Source: a virus
Reading direction: 5' to 3' (one strand)
DNA: 64,000 bases
Virus record (IMG/VR): IMGVR_UViG_3300009506_000002
Coordinates: 1-64,000 of that record
Positions 289-22,918 of the stretch are shown in pieces. Every line of letters starts with the position of its first letter. Within the stretch, counting starts at the first letter, position 1. The notes under the pieces are model-generated. The model saw nothing but the letters and a program-made list of their open reading frames with translations. It did not search any database and was not told the DNA's origin. The translations under genes were made by a program, and so were the position numbers.

Positions 289-297
289 AAATTTTTC

Positions 298-374
298 AGC
301 GTTGCCTTGGATTCGAACCAAGCTGGGTTCCGTCGAACCGTCTCATCTAGAATAGTTGCCATCACGTACAACGC
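298..374 (-). tRNA. tRNA-like element without a canonical anticodon arm
   Basis: A 7-bp acceptor stem (GCGTTGT/GCAACGC) and a perfect T-arm (CTTGG-TTCGAAT-CCAAG) are clear. No 5-bp stem with a 7-nt loop exists in the middle. Instead there is a hairpin GGTTC-GACG-GAACC that resembles a long variable arm, preceded by unpaired sequence containing TTCTAGA. CCA is not encoded, unlike the other members of the cluster. It may be a decayed class II tRNA or a repurposed tRNA-like RNA; no amino acid can be assigned. Confidence 0.5.
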
Positions 375-464: not shown

Positions 465-805
465 TGGTGGAGTCGAGGGGAATCGAACCCCTGTCTTGAA
501 ACCTTGTTTCATGCTTTCTACACGCTTAGTTCGTTTCTATACTCGGTGTTCACGTAAAACGAACAAACCGTGGTTGCCGAGTTGGCTAAATTTTCGTCTG
601 ATGACGCGCCAGTTCATCAGCTTATCCCTTCTAAGTAAACTCTCTTGGAACCGCCGAAGGGCGAGCAATTCCTGAGAGTGATTACGCTACAGCGCTAATC
701 GGAGTATCGTCGTTTGCGACTATTTACATGCCAACGTTTAACGTGGTCAGCCTACGTGCGTGCTTACGATGCCGTCCGTGTCTCAATCGAAACCTGTACG
801 ACCCC
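465..805 (-). ncRNA. ssrA: tmRNA (ssrA), phage-encoded
   Basis: tmRNA rescues stalled ribosomes and appends a degradation tag. The ends form an alanine-type tRNA domain: GGGGTCG pairs with CGACTCC including the G3-U70 pair that specifies alanine, followed by ACCA and a T-arm AGGGG-TTCGATT-CCCCT. Internally, AAATAGTC is followed by a resume codon GCA at 717 and a reading frame of 11 codons plus TAA. The tag is ANDDTPISAVA; charged alanine precedes it. The length of 341 nt is near the bacterial norm. It lies between tRNA genes and is probably driven by the promoter at 998-1026. tmRNA genes are known from some phages. Confidence 0.93.
682..717 (-). other. tmRNA tag reading frame (ANDDTPISAVA-stop)
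   Basis: Resume codon GCA, then AAC GAC GAT ACT CCG ATT AGC GCT GTA GCG TAA. The N-terminal AND matches the adaptor-binding part of typical proteobacterial tags (E. coli ANDENYALAA). The C-terminus AVA differs from the usual LAA that ClpX recognises. Confidence 0.9.
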
Positions 806-812
806 TGAAAAT

Positions 813-888
813 TGGTGGAACCGAAGGGAATCGAACCCTTCACAGTATGGTTGCAAACCACTCTCACCCCCTTGGTACATGCGGCCCC
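813..888 (-). tRNA. tRNA-Ala (UGC), or less likely Cys (GCA)
   Basis: Acceptor GGGGCCG/CGGTTCC contains G3-U70, the alanine identity pair; ACCA is encoded. The arm AGTGG-TTTGCAA-CCATA reads UGC with one mismatch at the stem base. Shifting by one base would read GCA but breaks two inner pairs, and A73 argues against cysteine. It starts 8 nt upstream of the tmRNA. Confidence 0.8.
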
Positions 889-997
889 ATTTGACACTAT
901 GTAAAGGCGCTTGCGCGCTCTCGCGGAGGAGTAAAAGCTCGTCGGCCGCGTTAAACATACTTTCCTTGACTAGCTAAAGTCAATTTCTTGTTGCGCA

Positions 998-1026
998 ACT
1001 CTAGCATATCGAAACCGAGTTGTCAA
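998..1026 (-). promoter_or_regulatory. Early-type promoter for tRNA-Ala/tmRNA cluster
   Basis: Minus strand TTGACA, 17-bp spacer, TAGAGT. It sits between tRNA-Val and tRNA-Ala and points into the tmRNA. It matches the promoter class repeated throughout the window. Confidence 0.75.
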
Positions 1027-1040
1027 CATCTTTTTTTAAC

Positions 1041-1114
1041 TGGTACTCACGGATAGAATCGAACTATCGTCTTCGCCTTGTCATGGCGGCGTTCTCCCAT
1101 TGAACTACGCGAGC
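1041..1114 (-). tRNA. tRNA-Val (GAC)
   Basis: Acceptor GCTCGCG/CGTGAGT with encoded ACCA, D-arm GTTC-AATGGGA-GAAC, T-arm GATAG-TTCGATT-CTATC. The loop ATGACAA closed by CGCC/GGCG gives anticodon GAC with U33 present. The acceptor ends with a G1-U72 wobble. Confidence 0.85.
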
Positions 1115-1115
1115 A

Positions 1116-1189
1116 TGGTGGAGTCCCGGGGAATCGAACCCCGATCTTCGCCTTGCAAGGGCGACATAATCCCATTATACTAGGACCCC
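1116..1189 (-). tRNA. tRNA-Ala (UGC)
   Basis: Acceptor GGGGTCC/GGACTCC with G3-U70, encoded ACCA, anticodon arm TCGCC-CTTGCAA-GGCGA (UGC) and T-arm CGGGG-TTCGATT-CCCCG. A second UGC alanine tRNA candidate lies at 813-888. Confidence 0.9.
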
Positions 1190-1198
1190 AGTCGATAT

Positions 1199-1267
1199 GT
1201 GTTTTGGTTGTTTGTTGTGCGCTTGCTCCTTTTCAGTTTTGAAGGGCAAGCTGATTGGGCTTAACCC
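1199..1267 (-). other. Gene-free stretch with a strong hairpin
   Basis: Between the tRNA cluster and the small late ORF. The minus strand contains GCTTGC-CCTT paired with AAGG-A-GCAAGC around a short loop. No U-tract follows, so it looks like an RNA-processing or stability element and not an intrinsic terminator. Confidence 0.4.
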
Positions 1268-1432
1268 TTAAATGTCAGTGGGATCTCGTTGAATATCGCC
1301 TGACTTAGGTCGATATGGCAATTCCTGCCAATTGGTCACGAGGCCATCCACTTCTGCGCCAAAGGCGGCGAGAGCGAGGCACGCCGATTCAGACGAATGG
1401 TTAAACAGACTTTTCATTGTGCGTGTGCCCAT
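1268..1432 (-). CDS. Small late protein (54 aa), unknown
   Basis: ATG at 1432 follows AAGGAG with 9-nt spacing, and the frame stays open to TAA at 1268. The product begins MGTRTMKSLFNHSSES and ends GDIQRDPTDI; no signal, membrane segment or known motif is visible. A good CATAAATA late box lies at 1481-1488, and the leader between forms a hairpin CAGGAC/GTCCTG. No family is recognised. The start signal and dedicated late promoter are the evidence that it is real. Confidence 0.6.
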   Translation of the reverse strand: MGTRTMKSLFNHSSESACLALAAFGAEVDGLVTNWQELPYRPKSGDIQRDPTDI

Positions 1433-1480
1433 TTGAATCGGCTCCTTTAGTTGATCAGGACTTGTAGACGTCCTGTGTTA

Positions 1481-1488
1481 TATTTATG
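1481..1488 (-). promoter_or_regulatory. Late promoter box CATAAATA
   Basis: Minus strand CATAAATA, the same variant as at 39139 and 55481. It would start transcripts about 43 nt upstream of the ATG at 1432. Confidence 0.6.
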
Positions 1489-1538
1489 CACGAAAACTTC
1501 TTCCTAGGGAAAATATTTTCATCCACTTGATATTGCGT

Positions 1539-1567
1539 ATTATAGCAACATCTGAAGGGCTTGTCAA
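1539..1567 (-). promoter_or_regulatory. Early-type promoter
   Basis: Minus strand TTGACA, 17 bp, perfect TATAAT. It points towards the small ORF and the tRNA cluster. Confidence 0.75.
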
Positions 1568-1615
1568 GAACTTTTTCTCAACTGCATTGAATGAATCAAT
1601 CCCTTCAATGGCGCA

Positions 1616-1644
1616 AGTCTAGCACAGCGGCAAGGACTTGTCAA
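1616..1644 (-). promoter_or_regulatory. Early-type promoter
   Basis: Minus strand TTGACA, 17 bp, TAGACT, placed directly after the stop of the gene at 1648-2259. It is tandem with the promoter at 1539. The leader between them holds a hairpin CATTGAA/TTCAATG. Confidence 0.75.
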
Positions 1645-1647
1645 GAA

Positions 1648-2259
1648 CTATTTATACGGGTTCGCTTTGATTGAATCTCGCGTTCCTGGAGGCATGTCCT
1701 GTAACTGCTTCACCAGGTTGCGTAGATTGACCACGGTGGCAGGGAAGAACTTGTCAGGTATGTCCATAATGCCCTCAAGCATTGGAGCAGCCATTTCAGC
1801 GATCTCAAGCGCTCTCAGATGGCTGTTTGCCATAATCATGTCGTGCCACTTAGGCGTGATTTCATCACCGTCTGGCGTGCGCGTGACAATCTCTGCGCCA
1901 GAATCACGGAATGCCCGTATGATTTCATTCGCATGAAACGCCGAGTTGCCAGAGTTGTAGGTCACAATACAGGTCTTCTGCATGTGAGGCGGTGTGCGCG
2001 CACCAAACATCGGATGGATGCTCAATACCCTACGCGAGTGTCTCAGACAAATCTTGGTTGAATCATCCTGAATGGAGCAAACGTTCACAAGGTACTTTCC
2101 TGCGTACTTTGCTGCCACATCGTCATAGGCTGAAAATGGCACCGCCAATACAACGATCTCTGCGTCATCTGCCAGCTCGATTCCCTTCACTTGACTGAAA
2201 AGCCCCATGAGGAAAGAGCCGAATGCGCCATCACCTACAACGTTAATCTTTGTCATCAT
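1648..2259 (-). CDS. Prephenate dehydrogenase-like NAD(P)-binding protein
   Basis: A 203-residue protein that starts with a Rossmann nucleotide-binding motif (VVGDGAFGSFL, about residues 7-17) and continues with an acidic strand and a LSIHPMFG segment (about 80-87) typical of TyrA/prephenate dehydrogenases. It is shorter than cellular TyrA (about 280 residues) and lacks an obvious chorismate mutase or ACT part. The role in a phage is unclear: aromatic amino acid supply is possible but the substrate is inferred. Its start overlaps the end of the upstream gene by 17 nt, so it is probably translationally coupled. Confidence 0.75.
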   Translation of the reverse strand: MMTKINVVGDGAFGSFLMGLFSQVKGIELADDAEIVVLAVPFSAYDDVAAKYAGKYLVNVCSIQDDSTKICLRHSRRVLSIHPMFGARTPPHMQKTCIVTYNSGNSAFHANEIIRAFRDSGAEIVTRTPDGDEITPKWHDMIMANSHLRALEIAEMAAPMLEGIMDIPDKFFPATVVNLRNLVKQLQDMPPGTRDSIKANPYK

Positions 2260-2752
2260 AAACCCATGTCTTCATAAAATTTGCGCACGCGTTCGCGTAG
2301 TACTCGTCACTATCTTCCCATGCAGTCATGCAACCTTCATAGACCGCAGGATGCAATAAATTCGTTTCGATGACCGTAGGAAGAACCTTACCTACGTCAT
2401 CATTCTTTCCGATCTTCATGTAGGTGATCGGGATACCCAACTCATGTGCTCTACCGATGCCTTCATACATTCCGGGTCCTATTCCGTAGTCACAGAAAAC
2501 AAGAACGCGTTCTGCTTGTGGTAGCCAAGCAAAACCGGCGCCCATGCCAAGTTTTCGCTCTGCTGGGATATTGTCATCCAGGATACCCTCTTGGGTGAAG
2601 AGCAAATGGCTGGCAATGGGCGCCATGCCTTGATGTACACAAAAGGAGACCGCTCTGCGCGCGTAGGTTACGTTGCGTTCAATTTCACCATCGAGCGCAA
2701 AGGGGCTCTCAATTACGACACGCTGCATAAGAGTCATTCCGTTTCCAAACAT
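2243..2752 (-). CDS. Conserved phage protein, nucleoside deoxyribosyltransferase-like fold
   Basis: About 169 residues. The pattern RVVIESPFALDGEIERNVTYARRA near the N-terminus and GIGRAHELGIPITYM later resembles small phage proteins related to nucleoside 2-deoxyribosyltransferases (DUF4406/DUF7768 type). The ATG at 2752 is preferred because GGAG lies 8 nt upstream; the longer frame back to 2818 overlaps the previous gene without a clear ribosome-binding site. Substrate unknown; base or nucleotide salvage is an inference from the fold only. Confidence 0.65.
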   Translation of the reverse strand: MFGNGMTLMQRVVIESPFALDGEIERNVTYARRAVSFCVHQGMAPIASHLLFTQEGILDDNIPAERKLGMGAGFAWLPQAERVLVFCDYGIGPGMYEGIGRAHELGIPITYMKIGKNDDVGKVLPTVIETNLLHPAVYEGCMTAWEDSDEYYANACANFMKTWVYDDKD

Positions 2753-2786
2753 TTCCTTATCTCCACATTGTGTATTTTTGTTGAAA

Positions 2787-3254
2787 TTAAGCCGCAGCTT
2801 CTGCTGGGGCAATGTCACTCACCTCGAGAACCGGACGCAAGGTACCGTTTCCTTCATACTTTGAGCGATCTTGTAGGCGGCGAGACTGCATGGCAGTTTC
2901 AGCAGTCGGCTTGACCTTTGGCTTGCTGGTCAAGCGTGCGATCATCGCGCGCATGTTCAATCCCTGGACGTACTCAACCCAGGCACGCTTCGCCTTTGGA
3001 AGCGTATAGTTCGAGCCGCGCGGCTTCTTAGGCTGTTGGCCGGCAGCAGGCGCCTGCGCCTGATCCAGGATTTTTTGTGCAGCATCACCCTGACCGGGAA
3101 AGGTCACCTGTGTCGGTTGCTTCATGAATTTCAGGTCTTCGTCCATCTGAGCCTGATCAGCGGCGGCAGCAATCTTTGCAGACAGAGCTTCGGCCTCGCC
3201 AGAGTTCTTCATATCTTCTGCGGCCATTGAAGCCACTTCTTTGTCGTCCATCAT
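2787..3254 (-). CDS. Hypothetical protein, Ala/Gln-rich
   Basis: A 155-residue protein starting MMDDKEVASMAAEDMKNSG after AGGAGA. The N-terminal half is acidic and helical, the middle is rich in Ala, Gln and Pro, and the C-terminal half is basic (KKPRGSNYTLPKAKRAW). No membrane segment or known domain is recognised. The stop of the upstream gene at 3257 is 2 nt away, so the two are co-translated. Confidence 0.7.
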   Translation of the reverse strand: MMDDKEVASMAAEDMKNSGEAEALSAKIAAAADQAQMDEDLKFMKQPTQVTFPGQGDAAQKILDQAQAPAAGQQPKKPRGSNYTLPKAKRAWVEYVQGLNMRAMIARLTSKPKVKPTAETAMQSRRLQDRSKYEGNGTLRPVLEVSDIAPAEAAA

Positions 3255-3256
3255 AA

Positions 3257-3484
3257 TCAATCTTCTCCTAGATAGTATTCTTGGTATTCTTCTGGCAGTG
3301 ACGCAGGGTTGATAACTTTCTTGCCCACGCACCACTCAAATTCGACGGGTATCAATTTGTGTACACGCTTCTTGTCGATCCCGTTCAGTCGATCAAGAAT
3401 CTGGGCGTTGTCAACATAACGTAATTCTTCACAAAACGGCCCTTGAAACGTGCCATTCTCGTTCTGAATTATCCAGCCCTTCAT
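3257..3484 (-). CDS. Hypothetical protein (75 aa)
   Basis: Begins MKGWIIQNENGTFQGPF. A soluble, acidic small protein without a recognised motif. Its ATG overlaps the TGA of the upstream membrane protein (ATGA), which supports translational coupling. Confidence 0.7.
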   Translation of the reverse strand: MKGWIIQNENGTFQGPFCEELRYVDNAQILDRLNGIDKKRVHKLIPVEFEWCVGKKVINPASLPEEYQEYYLGED

Positions 3485-3921
3485 GCGGTAGCAGTCTCCT
3501 TAGCCTGTTTGACTTCGGTACGAATGACGTACTTCACGCACTCGAGGATTGCACAACTGATGATCAGACCGATCATGGTAGCAAACCAGCCGTAGAACAT
3601 GGCGAAGCCGATAAGTGAAGCATACCAGGCGCGCGACCACAGATAAGTGTACCACTTGCCAACCCGATCCAGCTTCTCTGGATTCTTCTCGTAAACCTTG
3701 CGGAGACCTTCAGCCATCTTCTCGCCATCAATGGCATATCCGACCATGAACAGTGCGCCGGTGATAATGCTCATGATTGCGCCGAACCACACCCAGGTCA
3801 TGAAGAGGTTACCGGACCAATCGACGCCCTTGATCATGGCAAAGTAGCCCAGCGTCCAGATGGTGGCAGACAGTGCGTAGGCAGCAGCCGTTTTGAGGCC
3901 TGTTTTCAGAGACGCTTTCAT
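3481..3921 (-). CDS. Predicted membrane protein with about four TM segments
   Basis: 146 residues. Hydrophobic stretches appear near residues 10-30, 40-63, 97-112 and 113-130, separated by a charged segment (EGLRKVYEKNPEKLDRVGKW). No family is recognised. It lies in a tight run of small genes with overlapping starts and stops. An early accessory inner-membrane protein is the most that can be said. Confidence 0.7.
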   Translation of the reverse strand: MKASLKTGLKTAAAYALSATIWTLGYFAMIKGVDWSGNLFMTWVWFGAIMSIITGALFMVGYAIDGEKMAEGLRKVYEKNPEKLDRVGKWYTYLWSRAWYASLIGFAMFYGWFATMIGLIISCAILECVKYVIRTEVKQAKETATA

Positions 3922-4166
3922 TACGCACCTACCTCATCGGCTACTGCCTCGTCTGAATAGTCCTGCTCAGGTTGCAGGTGCTTGGTCTGGAAATACCAGG
4001 ACTCGCCGTTGGTCAGTTCAACGCCAAAGTAGACGTGATTAGCCTCTTCCATGATCTCTTCAACGACGCCAGAAAGACCTTCGACGTCTGCCGGCGTCAT
4101 ACCGACGTAATCTTCATTTGTTGGGGCAGCTACAACGACTACCTTATCACCTTTTGAATAACTCAT
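3921..4166 (-). CDS. Small SH3/KOW-like hypothetical protein
   Basis: 81 residues starting MSYSKGDKVVVVAAPTNEDY after a good AGAGGAG site. The pattern of a GD(K) turn followed by VVVV, then GLSGVVEEI and VYFGVELTNGESWYF, is what small SH3-like barrels look like. The function is unknown. Confidence 0.7.
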   Translation of the reverse strand: MSYSKGDKVVVVAAPTNEDYVGMTPADVEGLSGVVEEIMEEANHVYFGVELTNGESWYFQTKHLQPEQDYSDEAVADEVGA

Positions 4167-4167
4167 T

Positions 4168-4338
4168 CTATACTCCTCTTGTTAGTTCCATTATTTCTTG
4201 TACCATGCCATCCAGGACGGCATATTCGTTTTGATCAGGCGTCATCGTGGTAAGGCGATGCACCTCGCGTATGATGGCCTTCAACTTCTTGTTTTCGTCA
4301 TCGTAGGCATTCTGCGCTTGCAAGTCGTATCCTATCAT
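4168..4338 (-). CDS. Small helical hypothetical protein (56 aa)
   Basis: The frame runs from ATG at 4338, which overlaps the TGA of the SspB-like gene (ATGA), to TAG at 4168, 1 nt before the next ATG. The product starts MIGYDLQAQNAYDDENKKLK and is mostly charged helix. The stop-start overlaps on both sides are the main support. No family is recognised. Confidence 0.6.
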   Translation of the reverse strand: MIGYDLQAQNAYDDENKKLKAIIREVHRLTTMTPDQNEYAVLDGMVQEIMELTRGV

Positions 4339-4357
4339 ACTTCGGACCCCTTGTCAA
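4329..4357 (-). promoter_or_regulatory. Possible early-type promoter
   Basis: Minus strand TTGACA, 17 bp, TAGGAT. It overlaps the end of the SspB-like gene and the start of the 56-aa gene, so its transcripts would begin inside the 56-aa frame and serve the genes from 4166 downward. Confidence 0.5.
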
Positions 4358-4910
4358 CATCTTTCTTGAACACGCCCTCTTTGAACATGCGGACAGGTTC
4401 CTTCTTGCCATTGTCAACAACAAGCTCCAGTGGTGCCTCAGACTTCTTACCTTCAGTCGGGCCGTTGTCGACCACGAGTTTCAGTTCAGCCTTCTTAGGT
4501 GCCTGCTTTGCTGGCGCTTTCGGTGCTGCCTGTACTGGCTTAGGAGCTGGCTGCTCGGTAGCCTCAGGCGCAGCGTTTTCCTGTGACAGGTCATGGAAGG
4601 AAATACCCTCCTCCTGATAGGAATCTACGATTGAGATGATTGCATGGGATGGCACGACAACGGTATAACCCACGTGGTTGAACTCGACGTACCAAGACAG
4701 CTCCTGCTTGTCAAAGTCAAACTCAGGGTCTGGGTATGCGTCATTACGGATTGACAGCATCATGACCGGGTTGTTGGCCTGCTTGTACTGCTCCCGGATA
4801 TGCTTCGGGATCTGTACGTCATCAGTGATCAGGAAGTAGACTTCGTAGCGGAATTGGTAGTTGCCAGCGTTGACAGCTTCGCACAGAGAGTTAAGGAAAA
4901 TGTCTTTCAT
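4335..4910 (-). CDS. sspB: SspB-like ClpXP proteolysis adaptor
   Basis: SspB tethers ssrA-tagged proteins to ClpXP. Residues 1-110 follow the order of the E. coli SspB domain: an N-terminal helix, then VQIP (E. coli VQVP), VMMLSI (IVLNI), an F-rich strand pair, YTVVVPSHAIISI (VSVPLAAVLAI) and GISFHD. A Pro/Ala/Lys-rich linker (about 110-145) follows, as in SspB. Instead of one C-terminal ClpX-binding motif (E. coli ALRVVK), this protein has two similar segments, LKLVVDNG and LELVVDNG, followed by a basic-acidic tail. Length is 191 against about 165. The same phage encodes a tmRNA, which makes the role plausible. The assignment rests on remembered family sequence and not on a search. Confidence 0.65.
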   Translation of the reverse strand: MKDIFLNSLCEAVNAGNYQFRYEVYFLITDDVQIPKHIREQYKQANNPVMMLSIRNDAYPDPEFDFDKQELSWYVEFNHVGYTVVVPSHAIISIVDSYQEEGISFHDLSQENAAPEATEQPAPKPVQAAPKAPAKQAPKKAELKLVVDNGPTEGKKSEAPLELVVDNGKKEPVRMFKEGVFKKDVDKGSEV

Positions 4911-5134
4911 TGTGCGAACTGAACCTCAAAGGTATTGGTGGCAACTTTGTAGTCTACAATGATGGTGACTACCTCGCCGTTGGTAAGCTCGATGTCTGCA
5001 GAGTAGAACGCGCCCCGCGTGCCGCTTTTGCAGATGCCCTTGATGACATCCTGACGTTGTGCAATAACAGAAATTGCCATCCGGCAAGCTTCGACGTCAT
5101 GCGCCGATTTGATCATAATATTTGGATATTTCAT
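4907..5134 (-). CDS. Hypothetical protein (75 aa)
   Basis: Begins MKYPNIMIKSAHDVEACRMA. Two beta-rich segments (AFYSADIELTNGEVVTIIVDY) follow a helix. Starts and stops overlap both neighbours by 4 nt, so it is part of the same translationally coupled string as the SspB-like gene. No function recognised. Confidence 0.65.
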   Translation of the reverse strand: MKYPNIMIKSAHDVEACRMAISVIAQRQDVIKGICKSGTRGAFYSADIELTNGEVVTIIVDYKVATNTFEVQFAQ

Positions 5135-5334
5135 AGGTACCTCAATTCAGCTTCATAGCGATAATTTTCGTCGTCCCAGCGCATACGGATTTCATAGCCA
5201 AGATCCCTGAAAGTATGAACCCACACTTTGTCGGGATGCAGACCATCAAGGATGTTCTGACATTTGACGATGCTGGCAAAGACTTCTTTGGCCTGCAGCG
5301 CATTGCCTACATTCTTGAGAAGTACGTCAGCCAT
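5131..5334 (-). CDS. Hypothetical protein (67 aa)
   Basis: Begins MADVLLKNVGNALQAKEVFA. Soluble, mixed alpha/beta, with a Tyr/Glu-rich C-terminus. It overlaps the next gene by 4 nt. No family recognised. Confidence 0.65.
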   Translation of the reverse strand: MADVLLKNVGNALQAKEVFASIVKCQNILDGLHPDKVWVHTFRDLGYEIRMRWDDENYRYEAELRYL

Positions 5335-5576
5335 TATTCGATGCCCCAGGATGCGTTAAAGTAAGTCGGGTAGTCTGCTGGGTCAACGCTTTCTTCATGC
5401 ACAAACTCCTCCAGATTAACCCTGTTGTAAACGGTGATTGCCTGACTCAATGAAAGTCGGTGAACAAGATTGAGCGCATACAAAACGCGCTCTGCCTTTT
5501 CAGGCTCATCGTGATTCTCATGGTAATTGATAGCCTCGATGCATTCTTCAATCAGCTTCTCTTTGCAAGTCAACAT
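5334..5576 (-). CDS. Hypothetical protein (80 aa)
   Basis: ATG at 5576 lies 6 nt after AAGGAG and begins MLTCKEKLIEECIEAINYH; an earlier in-frame GTG lies within the ribosome-binding site and is unlikely. The sequence is helical and acidic. First gene behind the promoter at 5607-5635, so it heads the small-gene operon that includes the SspB-like adaptor. Confidence 0.65.
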   Translation of the reverse strand: MLTCKEKLIEECIEAINYHENHDEPEKAERVLYALNLVHRLSLSQAITVYNRVNLEEFVHEESVDPADYPTYFNASWGIE

Positions 5577-5591
5577 TGACAACTCCTTCAC

Positions 5592-5606: not shown

Positions 5607-5635
5607 AGTCTACACGAAAGCGAAGGAGTTGTCAA
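5607..5635 (-). promoter_or_regulatory. Early-type promoter
   Basis: Minus strand TTGACA, 17 bp, TAGACT, upstream of the small-gene operon from 5576 down. Confidence 0.8.
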
Positions 5636-5651: not shown

Positions 5652-6965
5652 TTAGATGGACGCCAGTTCCCTGATGCGCTCGAAGTTGGTCTTCAGCAGC
5701 AACTTGCCATCACGGAACACAACGTTCTCCAGGTTGAAGCGGCCTGCCTTTGACGCCTTGCTCGGATCAGTTTTCGGCGATTTATATACGTCTTTCCAGA
5801 CTCCATCTATACAAATTGCGCTTGCTTTTTGGGCAAATCCGTAAGTATCACGGTTGCAGTGTTGCAGCAGACCGCCACCCATGCCGAAGGCGATGTTGTC
5901 AATAGACAGCTTCTCCTCCATCATTGCTTCCAGCACCAGTGGCAGCGTATCGACGTCCATACCATCACCCTGAATCACGCGGATGCAGTCTGGCAGGACC
6001 TTGTAGCCCTTGCTGTTCACGGTGTAGCCATATTTGTCCATCAGTTGGTTGATGGTACGGCACACGATGACGCGCGGCTCACCAGAGTCAGGACGGACGA
6101 CTATAGTCTTACCCGAACTGACAACTTCTGCCTTCAGTTCACCGGCCCAGCCGTTGACCACGGCGTTGTCCAGATCGTACGAGTCTGAAACTACAGCAAC
6201 CAGAGGAGAATCCGGGAATGCCTTGATCATGTTGCGGTAGGCGTCGAACTCTCGCTCCTTGCCCCATGAAGTGATGGTGCTGTGCTCTGCAGCCGGGATT
6301 GAGTACGCCGGCATATCTGCGCCATAGTAGCGACGCGCGTACATGAGCGCAGAGACCGTGTCAGTTCCCTTGAAGTTGACCAGGTGAGCCATACCACCCA
6401 GACCAGCGGACTCTTCAGATGAAACGCCACGTGCACCGAAGTCGTGCAGCTTGAAGTCCAGAGACTCGATTGGTGCGTCAGATGACTGCTCCCAATACTT
6501 CTTCATGATCACCTTCAGGCGGTGGCTGTTTGTTGCCACAGTGGTCGGATACCAGATGGCGCGCAGGAGCGCGGTTTCCATGTAGTTGGTCAGCCACGGA
6601 ACATTCGGGTCAGTGTTCACCATTGTTGCGATGACTTGACGCAGAGGTACCTTTGAGCCTTCCTCTACCATGCGGATTTCCAGTGGCAGATAGCCGCCGT
6701 GCTCTTTCAGGATGTACTCCCAGCCCTCACGATTGAAAGGTACACCGTGTGCCTTGAATACTGCATCGGCTTCCTCGATGTCAGCCTGAGTGAATGGCTT
6801 GGTCAGGTACTCCATGCCGAATGCCTGCATGCCGAGTACAATCACATACGGGTTCATGCCGTAGCGCGCCTCGATGTAGGAATAGACGTATTCGGTACCT
6901 GGCGGGTACTGTTTGAAGTGGCTCGTCTTGTACGAGTCGGTGTTTAAGATCAGATTGTGTGTCAT
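5652..6965 (-). CDS. nadV: Nicotinamide phosphoribosyltransferase (NAMPT)
   Basis: Converts nicotinamide and PRPP to NMN. The 437-residue sequence opens with NLILNTDSYKTSHFKQYPPGTEYVYSYIEAR, the NAMPT signature, and contains the DFGARGVSSEESAGLGG and PAAEHSTITSWG active-site regions, VVSDSYD and VVRPDSGEP (phosphate/ribose binding), and the FGMGGGLLQ loop. Length is close to cellular NAMPT, somewhat shorter. It lies downstream of the NMN adenylyltransferase gene, so the pair makes a two-step route from nicotinamide to NAD+. Such pairs occur in vibriophage KVP40-like phages and in the NAD+ reconstitution pathway NARP2. Confidence 0.95.
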   Translation of the reverse strand: MTHNLILNTDSYKTSHFKQYPPGTEYVYSYIEARYGMNPYVIVLGMQAFGMEYLTKPFTQADIEEADAVFKAHGVPFNREGWEYILKEHGGYLPLEIRMVEEGSKVPLRQVIATMVNTDPNVPWLTNYMETALLRAIWYPTTVATNSHRLKVIMKKYWEQSSDAPIESLDFKLHDFGARGVSSEESAGLGGMAHLVNFKGTDTVSALMYARRYYGADMPAYSIPAAEHSTITSWGKEREFDAYRNMIKAFPDSPLVAVVSDSYDLDNAVVNGWAGELKAEVVSSGKTIVVRPDSGEPRVIVCRTINQLMDKYGYTVNSKGYKVLPDCIRVIQGDGMDVDTLPLVLEAMMEEKLSIDNIAFGMGGGLLQHCNRDTYGFAQKASAICIDGVWKDVYKSPKTDPSKASKAGRFNLENVVFRDGKLLLKTNFERIRELASI

Positions 6966-7396: not shown

Positions 7397-8467
7397 TTAT
7401 TTCCTCCCTTTGCTTCGAGCAATCATGTGTTTGGCAAGGTGCCAGTGATCTTCGTACATCTTGAATGACATCTGTTCGAACTCGGCAAACGTGAACCATT
7501 CGACTTCTTCAAAGTCATCCGCAGCTTTCACACGCGGCAGCTTCTCGTTCTTCAGTTCAATCAGGTATGCGTGCGTGATTGTACGACCACGCTCTGAACG
7601 TGCAGGAGAATCAAAGACCTCCTTGTGCGTCATTGAACCACGCAGAACTTGCTCGGGTACCTTGATACTTGTCTCTTCGACCAGTTCACGGAATGCCCCA
7701 TCAATGATGCGCTCGTTCTTCTCAATGAAGCCACCTGGCAGTGCCCAGAGTCCTTTACCTGGTGAGAACTTGCGCTTGCCAAGCAGGATATGTCCTGACT
7801 GAATGACCACGGCGTCGGTTGTCACGAAGGTTGGGGGATACGGAGCAGACTCCCATGACTTCTTGTAGTCTTGAATGAAGCACCACTCTTCCTGAATGGT
7901 GTTGAACACCGGAGAGCTTGCAAACTCCTTCATGACGTTCAGAGTCGTCTCAGGAAGCATGTCGATGTAGTGGCTTCTGAAGAACTTGCCAGGATGATCA
8001 AAGAACGCATCACGGATTTCTGTGCCATTGATCGGCGCGTTGTAGTGGTGGTGCTCGCATGAGAAGTAGGTGTGCCAATTCGGGAAATGGCTCAGGTAGT
8101 AGCTGCTCTCATCTCGGTTGAAGCCCAGCAGGACAACTTCACTTCCCTTGTAGCCAGTGAGCGCGACCTTGTGTTGGATTTGCTCAATCCACTTGTTTTC
8201 GTCATAGGTATAGTCGAAAATGCCCGTGGTAATGACGCGGTTCATGTACCCAGGAGGCGGATTGATAGGATTGAAGATCGGCTCAATCATTTTCGAGCGC
8301 TCGAGTTTTGTGTATGGGTTCTTTGCAGTGCGCGGGGTGTTGTATGACCCCAGCATGACCAGCACACGATCGGCTATCTCGAGACCGTCCTCGATTACCT
8401 TTTTGTGCCCGTTGTGAAATGGTTGGAAACGGCCGATGTAGACGGCCAACTTGTATTTGCGTGACAT
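7397..8467 (-). CDS. nadM: Bifunctional NMN adenylyltransferase / Nudix hydrolase
   Basis: The N-terminal half carries the NadM nucleotidyltransferase signature GRFQPFHNGH (about residues 12-21) and a later C-terminal nucleotide-binding region (GTEIRDAFF). The C-terminal half is a Nudix domain with the box GGFIEKNERIIDGAFRELVEET, matching Gx5Ex7REUxEExGU apart from the final residues. It adenylates NMN to NAD+; the Nudix half may hydrolyse ADP-ribose, as described for KVP40-like and bacterial relatives. 356 residues, normal for the fusion. The leader AGGGAGTCTAA before ATG is nearly repeated before the NAMPT gene. Confidence 0.92.
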   Translation of the reverse strand: MSRKYKLAVYIGRFQPFHNGHKKVIEDGLEIADRVLVMLGSYNTPRTAKNPYTKLERSKMIEPIFNPINPPPGYMNRVITTGIFDYTYDENKWIEQIQHKVALTGYKGSEVVLLGFNRDESSYYLSHFPNWHTYFSCEHHHYNAPINGTEIRDAFFDHPGKFFRSHYIDMLPETTLNVMKEFASSPVFNTIQEEWCFIQDYKKSWESAPYPPTFVTTDAVVIQSGHILLGKRKFSPGKGLWALPGGFIEKNERIIDGAFRELVEETSIKVPEQVLRGSMTHKEVFDSPARSERGRTITHAYLIELKNEKLPRVKAADDFEEVEWFTFAEFEQMSFKMYEDHWHLAKHMIARSKGRK

Positions 8468-14903: not shown

Positions 14904-15813
14904 CTTTGATGCCCTCCATTGTTTCATATACCCAGTCATCGATCTCTGAGAAGACCTCATGCTGTCCTTCACTCATGTTGAGGAATGTTTCGAACATGCG
15001 CTCGTATGCCTTCTCAGGACACAAGCCAAGTTTCTCGCGGTGGATGCAAACCGGCAGCTCCAGCTCTGCAATGTCATCCTCGAGGCGCAATGTCTGCGCG
15101 CGCCGCTTGAAGAATGAGATGCTAATGTCATCAGGGTTACCAGTTTCCCAGTCTGCAATCAACATGTCGTCACCGCTCAAAAGGCAGCAGTAGTCGTCCA
15201 CATTGTATCTGCCCTTGCGGTTGATCTCACCATAGTCGGTGTATTTGATGTTCTCGAGAAGGTGGTGCTGCTCTTTGATTGACGAATCAAACGTACTGAA
15301 ACCCTTGATCGCATAGTAGATGTGCAGCAAGTGAGGCATCAGATCACGAGAGACCCCGCCGAAAGCTAGGTCTTTGTCAGTGAACCATGACCCAGGATGT
15401 GGGATGCGATTCTCATTCTGCCACGAAAGCACAATGCTATCTGCAGAGATGTTCTGCCATAGTGCCAAGCTGTCACGGAACAGATTGTTCTTGACCATCT
15501 GCAAACGGATGTTCGGATAGTGGCGCTTGAAGTTCTTCCACGAATAGTGATCGCGGAAACCTGGCTTGTCAACCACGATGAGGTCAGTCAGACACATATT
15601 GGCAACGTCATAGGCCACAGGCTCATGCAGGTAGTTTGGTGTGGCAATTACGACGATGTCGTAGTAGTCCCACTTGACATCGCTCACATACTTGTAGGTT
15701 GCCTCTTCCTTGTTTGGGTCAACCGTGTCAACATGGTATCCCATATCTGACAGGATGTAGGCGTACATCTGACCGATACCGAGACCGATGACCAATGCGT
15801 AACCTCTAACCAT
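14890..15813 (-). CDS. Gfo/Idh/MocA-type oxidoreductase
   Basis: About 307 residues from ATG at 15813. N-terminal Rossmann motif VIGLGIGQMYA, then DIVVIATPNYLHEPVA and VDKPGF, the hallmark EKP-like motif of the family (here DKP). The C-terminal half (GGVSRDLMPHLLHIYYAIKG) fits the substrate domain. NAD(P)-dependent sugar or sugar-derivative oxidoreductase is inferred. It overlaps the neighbours on both sides and is part of the modification cluster. Confidence 0.8.
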   Translation of the reverse strand: MVRGYALVIGLGIGQMYAYILSDMGYHVDTVDPNKEEATYKYVSDVKWDYYDIVVIATPNYLHEPVAYDVANMCLTDLIVVDKPGFRDHYSWKNFKRHYPNIRLQMVKNNLFRDSLALWQNISADSIVLSWQNENRIPHPGSWFTDKDLAFGGVSRDLMPHLLHIYYAIKGFSTFDSSIKEQHHLLENIKYTDYGEINRKGRYNVDDYCCLLSGDDMLIADWETGNPDDISISFFKRRAQTLRLEDDIAELELPVCIHREKLGLCPEKAYERMFETFLNMSEGQHEVFSEIDDWVYETMEGIKDAGC

Positions 15814-17002
15814 TGTCGTCACCACCAAAGAAGTTTTCTAGGGAGGACATTTCTGACTCTGTGTCCTTGGTTGTAAACTCACGGTCGATGATCTCATACG
15901 CTCCCTCAAGGTTCTGGAATGCCTTGTAAATGGTGCGCACGTTCTTCTTCACCTCTGCAGGGAATGAAGCATCAAACACCTCAGGCATGTCCATGTTGAT
16001 CAGGCTGTCGATGGTGTTCTTGTAGCGCATCATGAGATACAGGTTATGCTCAAGGCCAAGCATGTAGAAGTCACGCGGACTCTTCAGCCAAGCCTTCACG
16101 CTGCCAACGTCACGGCATACAGGACAGTCGCATGGCATACCTAGATCGTCAGGAACATTCTTGTAGTCATGACGGTTTGAGTAGTAAATCTGCTGGATGC
16201 CAGTGTAGCCTGGGAAGATGAAGTATCCACCAAAGGCCAAGTTGCGCTGGAAGTATGACGAGTCAAAGATGATCTGAACGTCAACACCCAGGCGATTGAG
16301 GTTCTTCTGAATGGCAGCGAAGTAGATCATCGCGTCCATACGTGACACGCCGAAGATGTGGTGATACTTGACGTTTGGCTTGTCGTATTCACCCTTCTTG
16401 AGCAGGAAGAAAATGCCTTTCAGTGTGGCCTTGAAGTTGCGGTTTGTACCACCGTGTGCCCAGCCATCAAACTCGAAGTCCGATACAGCCTTGTACCAAC
16501 GTTCCATTTCTGGCACGTTCTTTGCTGATAGCACATTTAGGATAGAACAGTCCGATTTCGATCTGTTTTCGTGATAGTAGCGAGCAGCCTCATGTGACAG
16601 GTCAAGGCAGCGCTGAATTTCACCCTCACTACCTGCATTGGTAACAGGGCGATCGAGGATCGGGAAGATGTTGCCATTGCGCTCTGACCAATCAAGGGCG
16701 ATCTTGTTGTTCCAGTTCTTTTCAGACAGCGCGCCAGTTGAAAGCTGATACCCGCCTGAGTCCACAAAGATGCAAGCATGTTCATCGATGCTCAAATCCT
16801 CACGGATGTTGGGATACTTCTTGGCATGATGCGCAGCAGAGAACAGAACATCGGGATGGTAGAAGTAGTTATCAGCGTCCTTGTTGAAGAAACGCAATGA
16901 TTTGTGGATGCAATCAGACGTGCTGATAATATCCTGATCTGACTTCTTCAGGTAGCTGGTAGTTGCGCAGCTAAGTGAAGCAAAATATCGGGTAGTTCTC
17001 AA
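15806..17002 (-). CDS. dpdA: DpdA-like DNA guanine transglycosylase (TGT family)
   Basis: TGT-fold enzymes exchange guanine for 7-deazaguanines; the phage DpdA branch acts on DNA. FVDSGGYQLSTG (about residues 76-87) is the TGT substrate-binding signature, FDGWAHGG and a conserved Asp region (IIFDSSYFQ) follow, and the zinc site CDCPVC is present near residue 290. 398 residues. Translation probably starts at TTG 17002, 6 nt after AGGAG that overlaps the previous stop codon. With FolE, QueD and QueE nearby it implies 7-deazaguanine in phage DNA. Confidence 0.88.
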   Translation of the reverse strand: MRTTRYFASLSCATTSYLKKSDQDIISTSDCIHKSLRFFNKDADNYFYHPDVLFSAAHHAKKYPNIREDLSIDEHACIFVDSGGYQLSTGALSEKNWNNKIALDWSERNGNIFPILDRPVTNAGSEGEIQRCLDLSHEAARYYHENRSKSDCSILNVLSAKNVPEMERWYKAVSDFEFDGWAHGGTNRNFKATLKGIFFLLKKGEYDKPNVKYHHIFGVSRMDAMIYFAAIQKNLNRLGVDVQIIFDSSYFQRNLAFGGYFIFPGYTGIQQIYYSNRHDYKNVPDDLGMPCDCPVCRDVGSVKAWLKSPRDFYMLGLEHNLYLMMRYKNTIDSLINMDMPEVFDASFPAEVKKNVRTIYKAFQNLEGAYEIIDREFTTKDTESEMSSLENFFGGDDNG

Positions 17003-20537: not shown

Positions 20538-21407
20538 CTAAGTAGACCACGAATTTCCGAACAGATGACAGTGAAGACGCGGACTGAAGAAGTAGCCGTG
20601 GCGCATAGCCAGTTCTGCAACCCCACGCTCGGTTAGTTTGAGTCCTTCAATGGTTGCACCTTCCGGCATCAGGTAGATGTCTCCGATGAAATTGGTGTAG
20701 GTGGCTTCTACCTTTTCAACTTCCTCAATGTCCTGCTCGTCACGGATAACGAACTTGAGGTAAACATCAAAGTCCTCAGGGCTCCAGTCGTACAATTCAA
20801 CAACGTACTGGTCAACAGCTTCTGCCACAATTGCTTTCTGGAATGGTTCGCCAGAGATGCTCAATTTTGGCGAGACCGAGAACGTTACCTTGCCTCGTCC
20901 GTTGGTAGTATAATCTCGCAACGCCTGAACGAATTCTGGCAAGAGAGTCTGCGTACCATTTGTTTCGAACGTCAGGTCCATCTGGAAGTTGGTTCCTGCA
21001 AAGAACTCGACCCAGAACTTCTGATACTTCTTGAGCAATGGTTCGCCACCAGTGATAACGAGGTCTGGTGTATTCCACATATCCGCGTCGGTGAAGTAAC
21101 TCTGAATCCGGTTGTTAAGTTCGTCGACAGTGAAATCCTCTGAGAGATGGCGGTAACGCTTGCTCCATGCTGCGGAACTGTCACAACCGAAGTTGAAAAC
21201 TGGCAAGTCCTCAATGCTCTCAACCTGAGATACGTCGAATGTGTTATGGGGCATTTCCTCAATTGGAATCATATTGCCACGCGGCTGACCAAAGCCCGGA
21301 CAGTTCAGATTACAACCAAACACCCGGACAAAGACTGAGGGAACTCCAACCCGACGTCCTTCGCCCTGTACTGAATAGAATGCTTCTGTAATTTTAATCT
21401 TGCGCAT
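20538..21407 (-). CDS. queE: 7-carboxy-7-deazaguanine synthase (radical SAM)
   Basis: Converts 6-carboxytetrahydropterin to CDG. Starts MRKIKITEAFYSVQGEGRRVG, the QueE signature, at ATG 21407 with AAGGAG upstream. The cluster motif is unusual: FGCNLNCPGFG supplies two cysteines and the third is probably in GCDSSAAW 38 residues later, giving CX3CX38C. That segment matches the CDTxYAW that normally follows directly. ITGGEPLL is the SAM-binding GGE motif. 289 residues, longer than usual. The frame is open upstream into the HNH region with no stop between. Confidence 0.88.
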   Translation of the reverse strand: MRKIKITEAFYSVQGEGRRVGVPSVFVRVFGCNLNCPGFGQPRGNMIPIEEMPHNTFDVSQVESIEDLPVFNFGCDSSAAWSKRYRHLSEDFTVDELNNRIQSYFTDADMWNTPDLVITGGEPLLKKYQKFWVEFFAGTNFQMDLTFETNGTQTLLPEFVQALRDYTTNGRGKVTFSVSPKLSISGEPFQKAIVAEAVDQYVVELYDWSPEDFDVYLKFVIRDEQDIEEVEKVEATYTNFIGDIYLMPEGATIEGLKLTERGVAELAMRHGYFFSPRLHCHLFGNSWST

Positions 21408-22316
21408 TTGTTCTCCTTGCCTTTCAAGAAATAGTGCAACCTTCTTGTGGTGTTCCAGAACTTCACTGTCCAAAGAGTCACCTTTCATTCTGTTGCACAT
21501 TGCGCACAAAGGCTGGATGTTTGTGAAAGTGTATCCAAAATCGGAGTTCTGTGAAGGCTTAGAAAAAATGCGGTCAATAGACATAACATTATGCTGTCCG
21601 ATATTTGACTTAACCTTACGAGAAAGTTCCATTCCACAATGCTGGCACATAAGGAATCCGTCCTTCATAACATAATAATGCATCTTTCTATTGATTCCCT
21701 CAATAGAAAGTTCCATTGGAATATTACGCTCTTCTGCCGATGAAACAACCTTCTTGTAGAAATGTGCATCAATGAAGGTGGTTTCTTGAAATTTTCTATT
21801 GTCGAGAGATTCATCTGCGCCAGCGGTGCCGAACTCATTTGCGCCACGAGCCGAAGATTCATTCAGATGATGAACCTTAAATCCGAACACGTGGTCTGAA
21901 ATATCTTTGCTGTAAGAATCTGAATAGATAGCAGACAGCACACGACGAGGATTGCCACTTTCATCATCGTAGACAGTAACTCCTAGAATTTTGAAAACGT
22001 TTCCTCTCAGCTTTGAAACAAAGACACGTCCTGCAAATTTACTCTTTCCTGCGCGAGGATTTGACAACTTCTGGAGTGAAACATCTTCCGAACCCTTTAC
22101 AAGTTCCCACGATTTCTGAACAGATGAGCGTGTAATGGAACCAGTCTCTCCTGTGCCAATAACGGTATATTCTATACGAACATCACGAGATGGGCGACCC
22201 ACTCCCGTCACACGATCAACACGAATAAGGCGGTTGTGAGAACTGCGGTTGTCGATTTTTGGTGTGTAGATGTTTCCTTTATATTTGGAATTAATCTCAT
22301 AGCGTTCTTCTATGAT
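21408..22316 (-). CDS. HNH endonuclease ORF fused in frame to queE
   Basis: Homing-type nuclease between queD and queE. CQHCGMELSRKVKSNIGQHNVMS, DRIF, then FTNIQPLCAMCNRMKGD gives the HNH core with two CxxC zinc knuckles near its C-terminus. About 200 residues without a recognised domain precede it. There is no stop codon before queE. AGGAG at 22323-22327 is followed by ATT ATC ATA GAA; the first conventional start is GTG at 22211, so a non-standard start or a truncated product is likely. The given start assumes ATC. Confidence 0.75.

Positions 22317-22333: not shown

Positions 22334-22918
<585 letters not shown>

Follow-up and report, generated by a model that had tools for sequence, protein, structure and literature searches.

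Both components treated here, the transfer-messenger RNA (tmRNA, gene ssrA) and the ClpXP adaptor SspB, are already known from phages, the adaptor from pf16, phiKZ and the Erwinia jumbo phages; what appears to be new is their pairing. The pair lies in the first 64 kb (hereafter the window) of the IMG/VR record IMGVR_UViG_3300009506_000002, which comprises 142,377 bp in full, and consists of a one-piece tmRNA gene and a gene for an SspB-like protein. A literature search, with subscription papers and preprints outside its scope, found no report of a phage tmRNA together with SspB, in agreement with the first-pass annotation of the window, which had named no described pair of this kind. Similarly, SspB is not mentioned in the phage tmRNA papers examined.

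Gp18 of Pseudomonas phage pf16 resembles the present case in being an SspB in a T4-like phage. It is, however, 53% identical to E. coli SspB and hence points to a fairly recent capture from a host, whereas the window protein is deeply diverged. It was described as the first phage SspB, in a phage that has no tmRNA, and RseA (sigma-E release) was proposed as its target (PMC5587285). The SspB-like proteins of jumbo phages (phiKZ PHIKZ232, Psa21, Erwinia RAY gp039 and those of other agricanviruses, LucasX) contain a diverged SspB domain, mostly with a tail of the PxLxVVK/PKLTVIK type, but differ from the window in that no tmRNA above the Rfam cut-off is present in the tested records; RAY gp039 is regarded as a putative ClpXP adaptor (PMC10299810). 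PHIKZ232 (locus L011:1971-2879), which has no product name in its record, matches an NCBIfam SspB model with 49.7 bits (E 3.9e-13) and carries a C-terminal PKLTVIKGGKK. As to the RNA, a survey found tmRNA in 402 of 18,146 phage genomes (~2%), and Methylophilales phage Melnitz, like the window, shows a complete tmRNA in a T4-like phage (PMC9004378). The Melnitz tmRNA is two-piece and comes without SspB, whereas that of the window is one-piece and comes with an adaptor.

Compared with bacterial SspB (PF04386, PRK11798), the window protein shares the core fold; its tail is likewise predicted to be disordered and carries a hydrophobic motif that resembles a docking motif. It differs in being only ~17% identical to the solved proteins and in falling under every NCBIfam equivalog cut-off. 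Its tail motif also reads LxLVVDN instead of LRVVK, is duplicated, and is followed after the second copy by 24 residues rather than by the end of the protein.

The tmRNA gene and the SspB-family protein

The features that make up the pair are the following.

465..805 (-): tmRNA gene (ssrA), one-piece, 341 nt (ARAGORN; RF00023; G3-U70, CCA end)
682..717 (-): tag reading frame ANDDTPISAVA plus stop, GCAAACGACGATACTCCGATTAGCGCTGTAGCGTAA (ARAGORN and frame reading)
4335..4910 (-): SspB-like, putative ClpXP adaptor, 191 aa, with folded core 1-108 and predicted disordered tail 109-191 (PF04386, AlphaFold2, Foldseek)
4464..4484 (-): tail motif 1, residues 143-149, LKLVVDN, candidate ClpX-docking motif (invariant LxLVVDN; NCBIfam profile ends here)
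4410..4430 (-): tail motif 2, residues 161-167, LELVVDN (invariant LxLVVDN)

The identities of the tmRNA and of the SspB-family protein are near certain. The first-pass annotation had claimed a complete tmRNA at 465-805 and, 3.5 kb away on the same strand, an SspB-like protein at 4335-4910, and both calls are borne out. The RNA is called by ARAGORN and matches Rfam RF00023 over the whole model (positions 1-374 of 374) with 143.3 bits and an E value of 3.8e-56, the gathering cut-off being 47 bits. Its acceptor stem is fully paired, contains the G3-U70 pair that is the mark of alanine identity, and ends in CCA. The tag frame begins with GCA and ends with TAA; the first alanine of a tag is supplied by the charged tmRNA, and the mature tag would read A-ANDDTPISAVA. 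A DNA pattern for this exact tag matched nothing in the viral and bacterial collections, so that the tag gives no host. A stricter tmRNA pattern had no match in IMG/VR either; it was too tight and would miss even a known relative.

A permuted tmRNA (ARAGORN 591-909; RF04321, 53.5 bits) was rejected because the one-piece model scores far higher (143 bits). What RF04321 matches is a composite of the 5' part of the real tmRNA and the T-arm of a tRNA-like sequence at 813-888(-), and it is this tRNA-like sequence that gives rise to the false call. It lies immediately upstream of the tmRNA; its acceptor stem of 7 bp contains G3-U70 and its anticodon loop is TGC-like, but ARAGORN calls no tRNA there. 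A possible further tRNA-like sequence, seen by eye and without an ARAGORN call, is located at 289-366(-), between tRNA-Ile and tRNA-Leu.

The SspB-like reading frame, separated from the tmRNA by 3,529 bases, matches Pfam PF04386 with 36.2 bits (E 7.9e-9), above the curated cut-off of 27 bits. Structure prediction, which had been proposed as a check, leads to the same family. The AlphaFold2 model (four-row alignment) shows a confident core (residues 1-108, block-mean pLDDT mostly 76-93) and a tail (109-191) predicted to be disordered, which is the layout of SspB. In a Foldseek comparison with the PDB, ranks 1-2 were two chains of the Agrobacterium protein 2nys (E 2.4e-6) and every chain from rank 3 to rank 19 was an SspB, among them those solved in complex with ssrA (1ox9, 1ou8) or RseA (1yfn) and that of a ClpXP delivery complex (8et3); beyond these, no match was better than E 0.069. 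A phmmer search of the PDB chains with the single window sequence found no SspB, nor did a four-row profile. Hence, the kinship is visible only through Pfam, NCBIfam and fold comparison. The NCBIfam SspB equivalog models (PRK11798) gave 23 bits, their cut-offs being 135 or higher, and by these profiles the window protein is to be seen as a diverged member of the SspB family and not as a bacterial SspB equivalog. No match was obtained by tblastn in phage records, and no relative of the window type was found in 84,980 bacterial and archaeal species genomes, so that no donor can be named.

The tail motif LxLVVDN is invariant across the lineages that possess an SspB of the window type. Its site corresponds to PALRVVK in E. 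coli SspB, PTLRVVK in pf16 and PKLTVIK in phiKZ, and the NCBIfam SspB profiles, though scoring far under the equivalog cut-offs, can be aligned as far as motif 1, where they end (window residue 146 being profile position 142 of 143). Neither motif stands at the extreme C-terminus of the protein. The two motifs resemble the ClpX-docking (XB) tail of SspB and may serve a docking role; the tail of E. coli SspB docks on the zinc-binding domain of ClpX (PMC8138137).

Recurrence of the pair in related viruses

Relatives were sought among 50 IMG/VR contigs picked by terminase similarity and, in addition, by a scan with the aligned SspBs. The closest contig, IMGVR_UViG_3300003873_000004 (G003, locus L105; terminase 59%), was the only one of the 50 with an SspB match and also the only one with a tmRNA above the RF00023 cut-off. 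The scan returned G003 and two near-identical contigs, 3300003542_000081 and 3300028827_000091 (loci L107/L108; 99.96% identical over 20.5 kb). The SspB of these two is 44% identical to that of the window, that of G003 28%. PF04386 scores were 34.5 bits for L108 and 19 bits, under the cut-off, for G003; the AlphaFold2 model of the G003 protein has the same fold, and Foldseek retrieves with it the same PDB set as with the window protein.

Every relative of the window SspB that was found is accompanied by a same-strand tmRNA gene, located downstream of that for DNA polymerase; in L107 and L108 it scores 112 bits and lies 7.4 kb downstream of sspB. The gene order DNMP kinase, DNA polymerase, sspB, tmRNA is common to all three lineages, and the earlier proposal that tag and adaptor belong together has thereby gained support from two further lineages. 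In G003, where 17 kb were examined, sspB and the tmRNA are the only genes from the window's DNA-polymerase-to-tmRNA stretch with detectable counterparts. Identities between the lineages are only 50 to 62% for the tmRNA and 28 to 44% for SspB, so both genes have been kept over a long divergence. The G3-U70 pair, the tag frame and its stop are kept in the tmRNAs of all three, the covariance matches are full-length, and the SspB reading frame is intact in each. The encoded tags are ANDDTPISAVA in the window, ANDDAPIAQAA in L107/L108 and AANASNILRAAA in G003, with ANDD common to the first two. By eye, the T-loops of the relatives' tmRNAs read AGGCAGAG and TGCAAAT and deviate from the usual TTCRA, the stems being kept.

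Outside these viruses either part occurs alone, so that the pairing characterises this lineage and does not hold for phages in general. No tmRNA above the Rfam cut-off was detected in the SspB-bearing phages pf16, phiKZ, Psa21, LucasX, pEa_SNUABM_54, Ea35-70, AH06, Vibrio D181, pPa_SNUABM_DT01 and PS119XW, and no SspB was found in two tmRNA-bearing genomes, Melnitz and G032. The latter is a 160-kb T4-like contig with a permuted tmRNA (L106:4148-4485) that encodes the tag ANDDSYYGDYALAA. The SspB of 'Acinetobacter phage MD-2021a' was rejected as phage evidence because it sits in a bacterial rplM-rpsI-sspA-sspB operon, and the Salmonella SspB matches look bacterial as well. Aeromonas phiA8-29 and Vibrio VAP7, matched in the viral-fold comparison, were set aside, as they show neither a PF04386 match nor a tmRNA above cut-off.

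Coupled or separate action of tag and adaptor

We infer that the two parts are likely to be functionally coupled, and give about an even chance to a phage-owned module of tag and adaptor that feeds host ClpXP. In such a module, host AlaRS would charge the phage tmRNA and host SmpB would escort it; no SmpB gene is encoded in the record, and the tmRNA would therefore need that of the host. The tmRNA would rescue ribosomes stalled during infection and add the tag A-ANDDTPISAVA to their products. Phage SspB would grip the N-terminal AND(D) part of this tag, AND being the binding place of E. coli SspB in the ssrA tag, and would dock with its two LxLVVDN motifs on the zinc-binding domain of host ClpX. 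Host ClpXP would then degrade the tagged chains with no need of host SspB, or else with phage and host SspB competing.

The main rival is separate action. The tmRNA would then be part of the phage's tRNA and translation kit, rescuing ribosomes when mRNAs are cut, and SspB would serve other ClpXP substrates, be they host ssrA-tagged proteins, RseA, or a host defence or phage protein. We take this seriously, while according it less than an even chance. That the tmRNA lies among clustered tRNA genes, both in the window and in L108, would be expected from it, as would phage SspBs without tmRNA and tmRNA phages without SspB; the RseA role proposed for a phage SspB (PMC5587285) points the same way. 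It sits less well with the retention of the pair in all lineages that have this SspB subfamily while the surrounding genes turn over, and with the low base rate of phage tmRNA (PMC9004378). Coupling for its part has to contend with several observations. A phage SspB would seem to have no need of a phage tag, since phage SspBs elsewhere occur without tmRNA, and the core of the window protein is remote from the solved SspBs (~17% identity). The G003 tag AANASNILRAAA retains AAN and not AND, the tmRNAs at L108:17947-18294 and L105:11510-11867 have non-canonical T-loops, and the two genes, lying 3.5 to 7.4 kb apart across the lineages, do not form one operon. Moreover, the sample is small, with just three lineages that are kin to one another, and part of the pattern is accounted for by inheritance of a conserved region from a shared ancestor.

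That the phage SspB or the tag acts as a decoy or brake, keeping tagged proteins from ClpXP, appears improbable. The AVA end would here serve ClpX poorly as a signal, and docking on ClpX would be contested between phage and host SspB. The C-terminal LAA of the tag is the ClpX signal, and it is in keeping with a brake that the tag ends vary between lineages and differ from the usual LAA, and that the tail motifs lie away from the extreme C-terminus. The docking-type motifs are nevertheless kept, even duplicated, and a pure sponge needs none for its substrates, though it could occupy ClpX. Least credible is that one of the parts is a non-functional passenger, either a decaying tmRNA or a repurposed SspB fold. 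Such decay might be read from the T-loops of the relatives, but it is hard to square with full-length covariance matches in three lineages despite tmRNA identities of 50 to 62%, with the persistence of G3-U70, tag frame and stop, and with an SspB frame intact in each lineage.

If tag and adaptor are indeed coupled, degradation may depend on the adaptor owing to the unusual ends of the tags (AVA, QAA, AAA), by analogy with engineered weak-tag systems, in which the DAS+4 tag is stable without SspB (PMC8138137). A stronger version, which we consider doubtful, would be an orthogonal, adaptor-gated circuit in which a weak ClpX end lacking the usual leucine is combined with a strong SspB handle, so that tagged chains would be degraded only with the phage adaptor. 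Were this true, gating would let the phage set when, in the course of infection, aborted chains or selected targets are cleared, and the engineered DAS+4/SspB degron systems (PMC8138137) would have a parallel in nature. The pair also bears on why some phages carry a tmRNA at all: the retention of a tmRNA alongside a dedicated adaptor suggests that selection acts on what becomes of the tagged protein and not on ribosome rescue alone. This idea could be put to the test with a single purified protein and three short peptides. Tag-adaptor pairs without host cross-talk, for controlled protein degradation in bacteria, could be a further yield.

Promoters, neighbouring genes and genome

The transcription units of the pair include the following further features.

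998..1026 (-): sigma70-like promoter TTGACA-17-TAGAGT, located ~190 bp before the tmRNA (one site of a family spread through the genome)
5607..5635 (-): sigma70-like promoter TTGACA-17-TAGACT, ahead of the run of overlapping genes (5591-3257) to which sspB belongs (same site family)
4907..5591 (-): three small ORFs (5334-5591, 5131-5334, 4907-5134) in head-to-tail overlap with sspB (ORF table)

The three small ORFs and sspB probably form one transcript; for the two that were searched (4907-5134 and 5131-5334), no Pfam match over cut-off was obtained. Sites of the form TTGACA-N16-18-TANNNT number 57 in the full record, against 3.35 expected from a Markov model, and nearly all are on the minus strand. 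The family has an extended form, TTGACA-N17-TAGACT, with a conserved spacer and with ATTATTGAG downstream. Similar promoters precede sspB (9933) and the tRNA-tmRNA cluster (17509) in L108, and are found upstream of sspB and of the tmRNA in G003, at 4910 and 10627. The promoters ahead of the tmRNA and sspB units are of the same, early-looking type, so that both units may be read by host RNA polymerase at the same stage of infection.

The ends of the record form a direct terminal repeat of 144 bp, and the genome is therefore probably complete. The virus is a T4-like myovirus: T4-like families account for its portal, terminase, major head, sheath, helicase and DNA polymerase proteins, the nearest portals being those of cyanophages and Melnitz (~47 to 50%). 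No similar phage record was found at the DNA level. Two elements interrupt the DNA polymerase gene of G003 (L105:686-4682): a group I intron (RF00028, with 106.7 bits at 3426-3640) and, at 2195-3196 on the opposite strand, an ORF that may encode a homing endonuclease.

A search with a defence-system library gave no match. The window contains an NAD salvage pair, a nicotinamide phosphoribosyltransferase beside a fused nucleotidyltransferase/Nudix protein (5652-6965(-) and 7397-8467(-)), which recurs in L108 at 67 to 73% identity; pairs of this kind have been linked to the countering of NAD-depleting defences. TGT-like, QueE-like and PTPS/QueD-like genes (15806-17002(-), 20538-22211(-) and 22334-22888(-)) constitute a probable 7-deazaguanine DNA modification cluster, and the QueE frame contains an HNH/endonuclease VII-like segment toward its N-terminal side.

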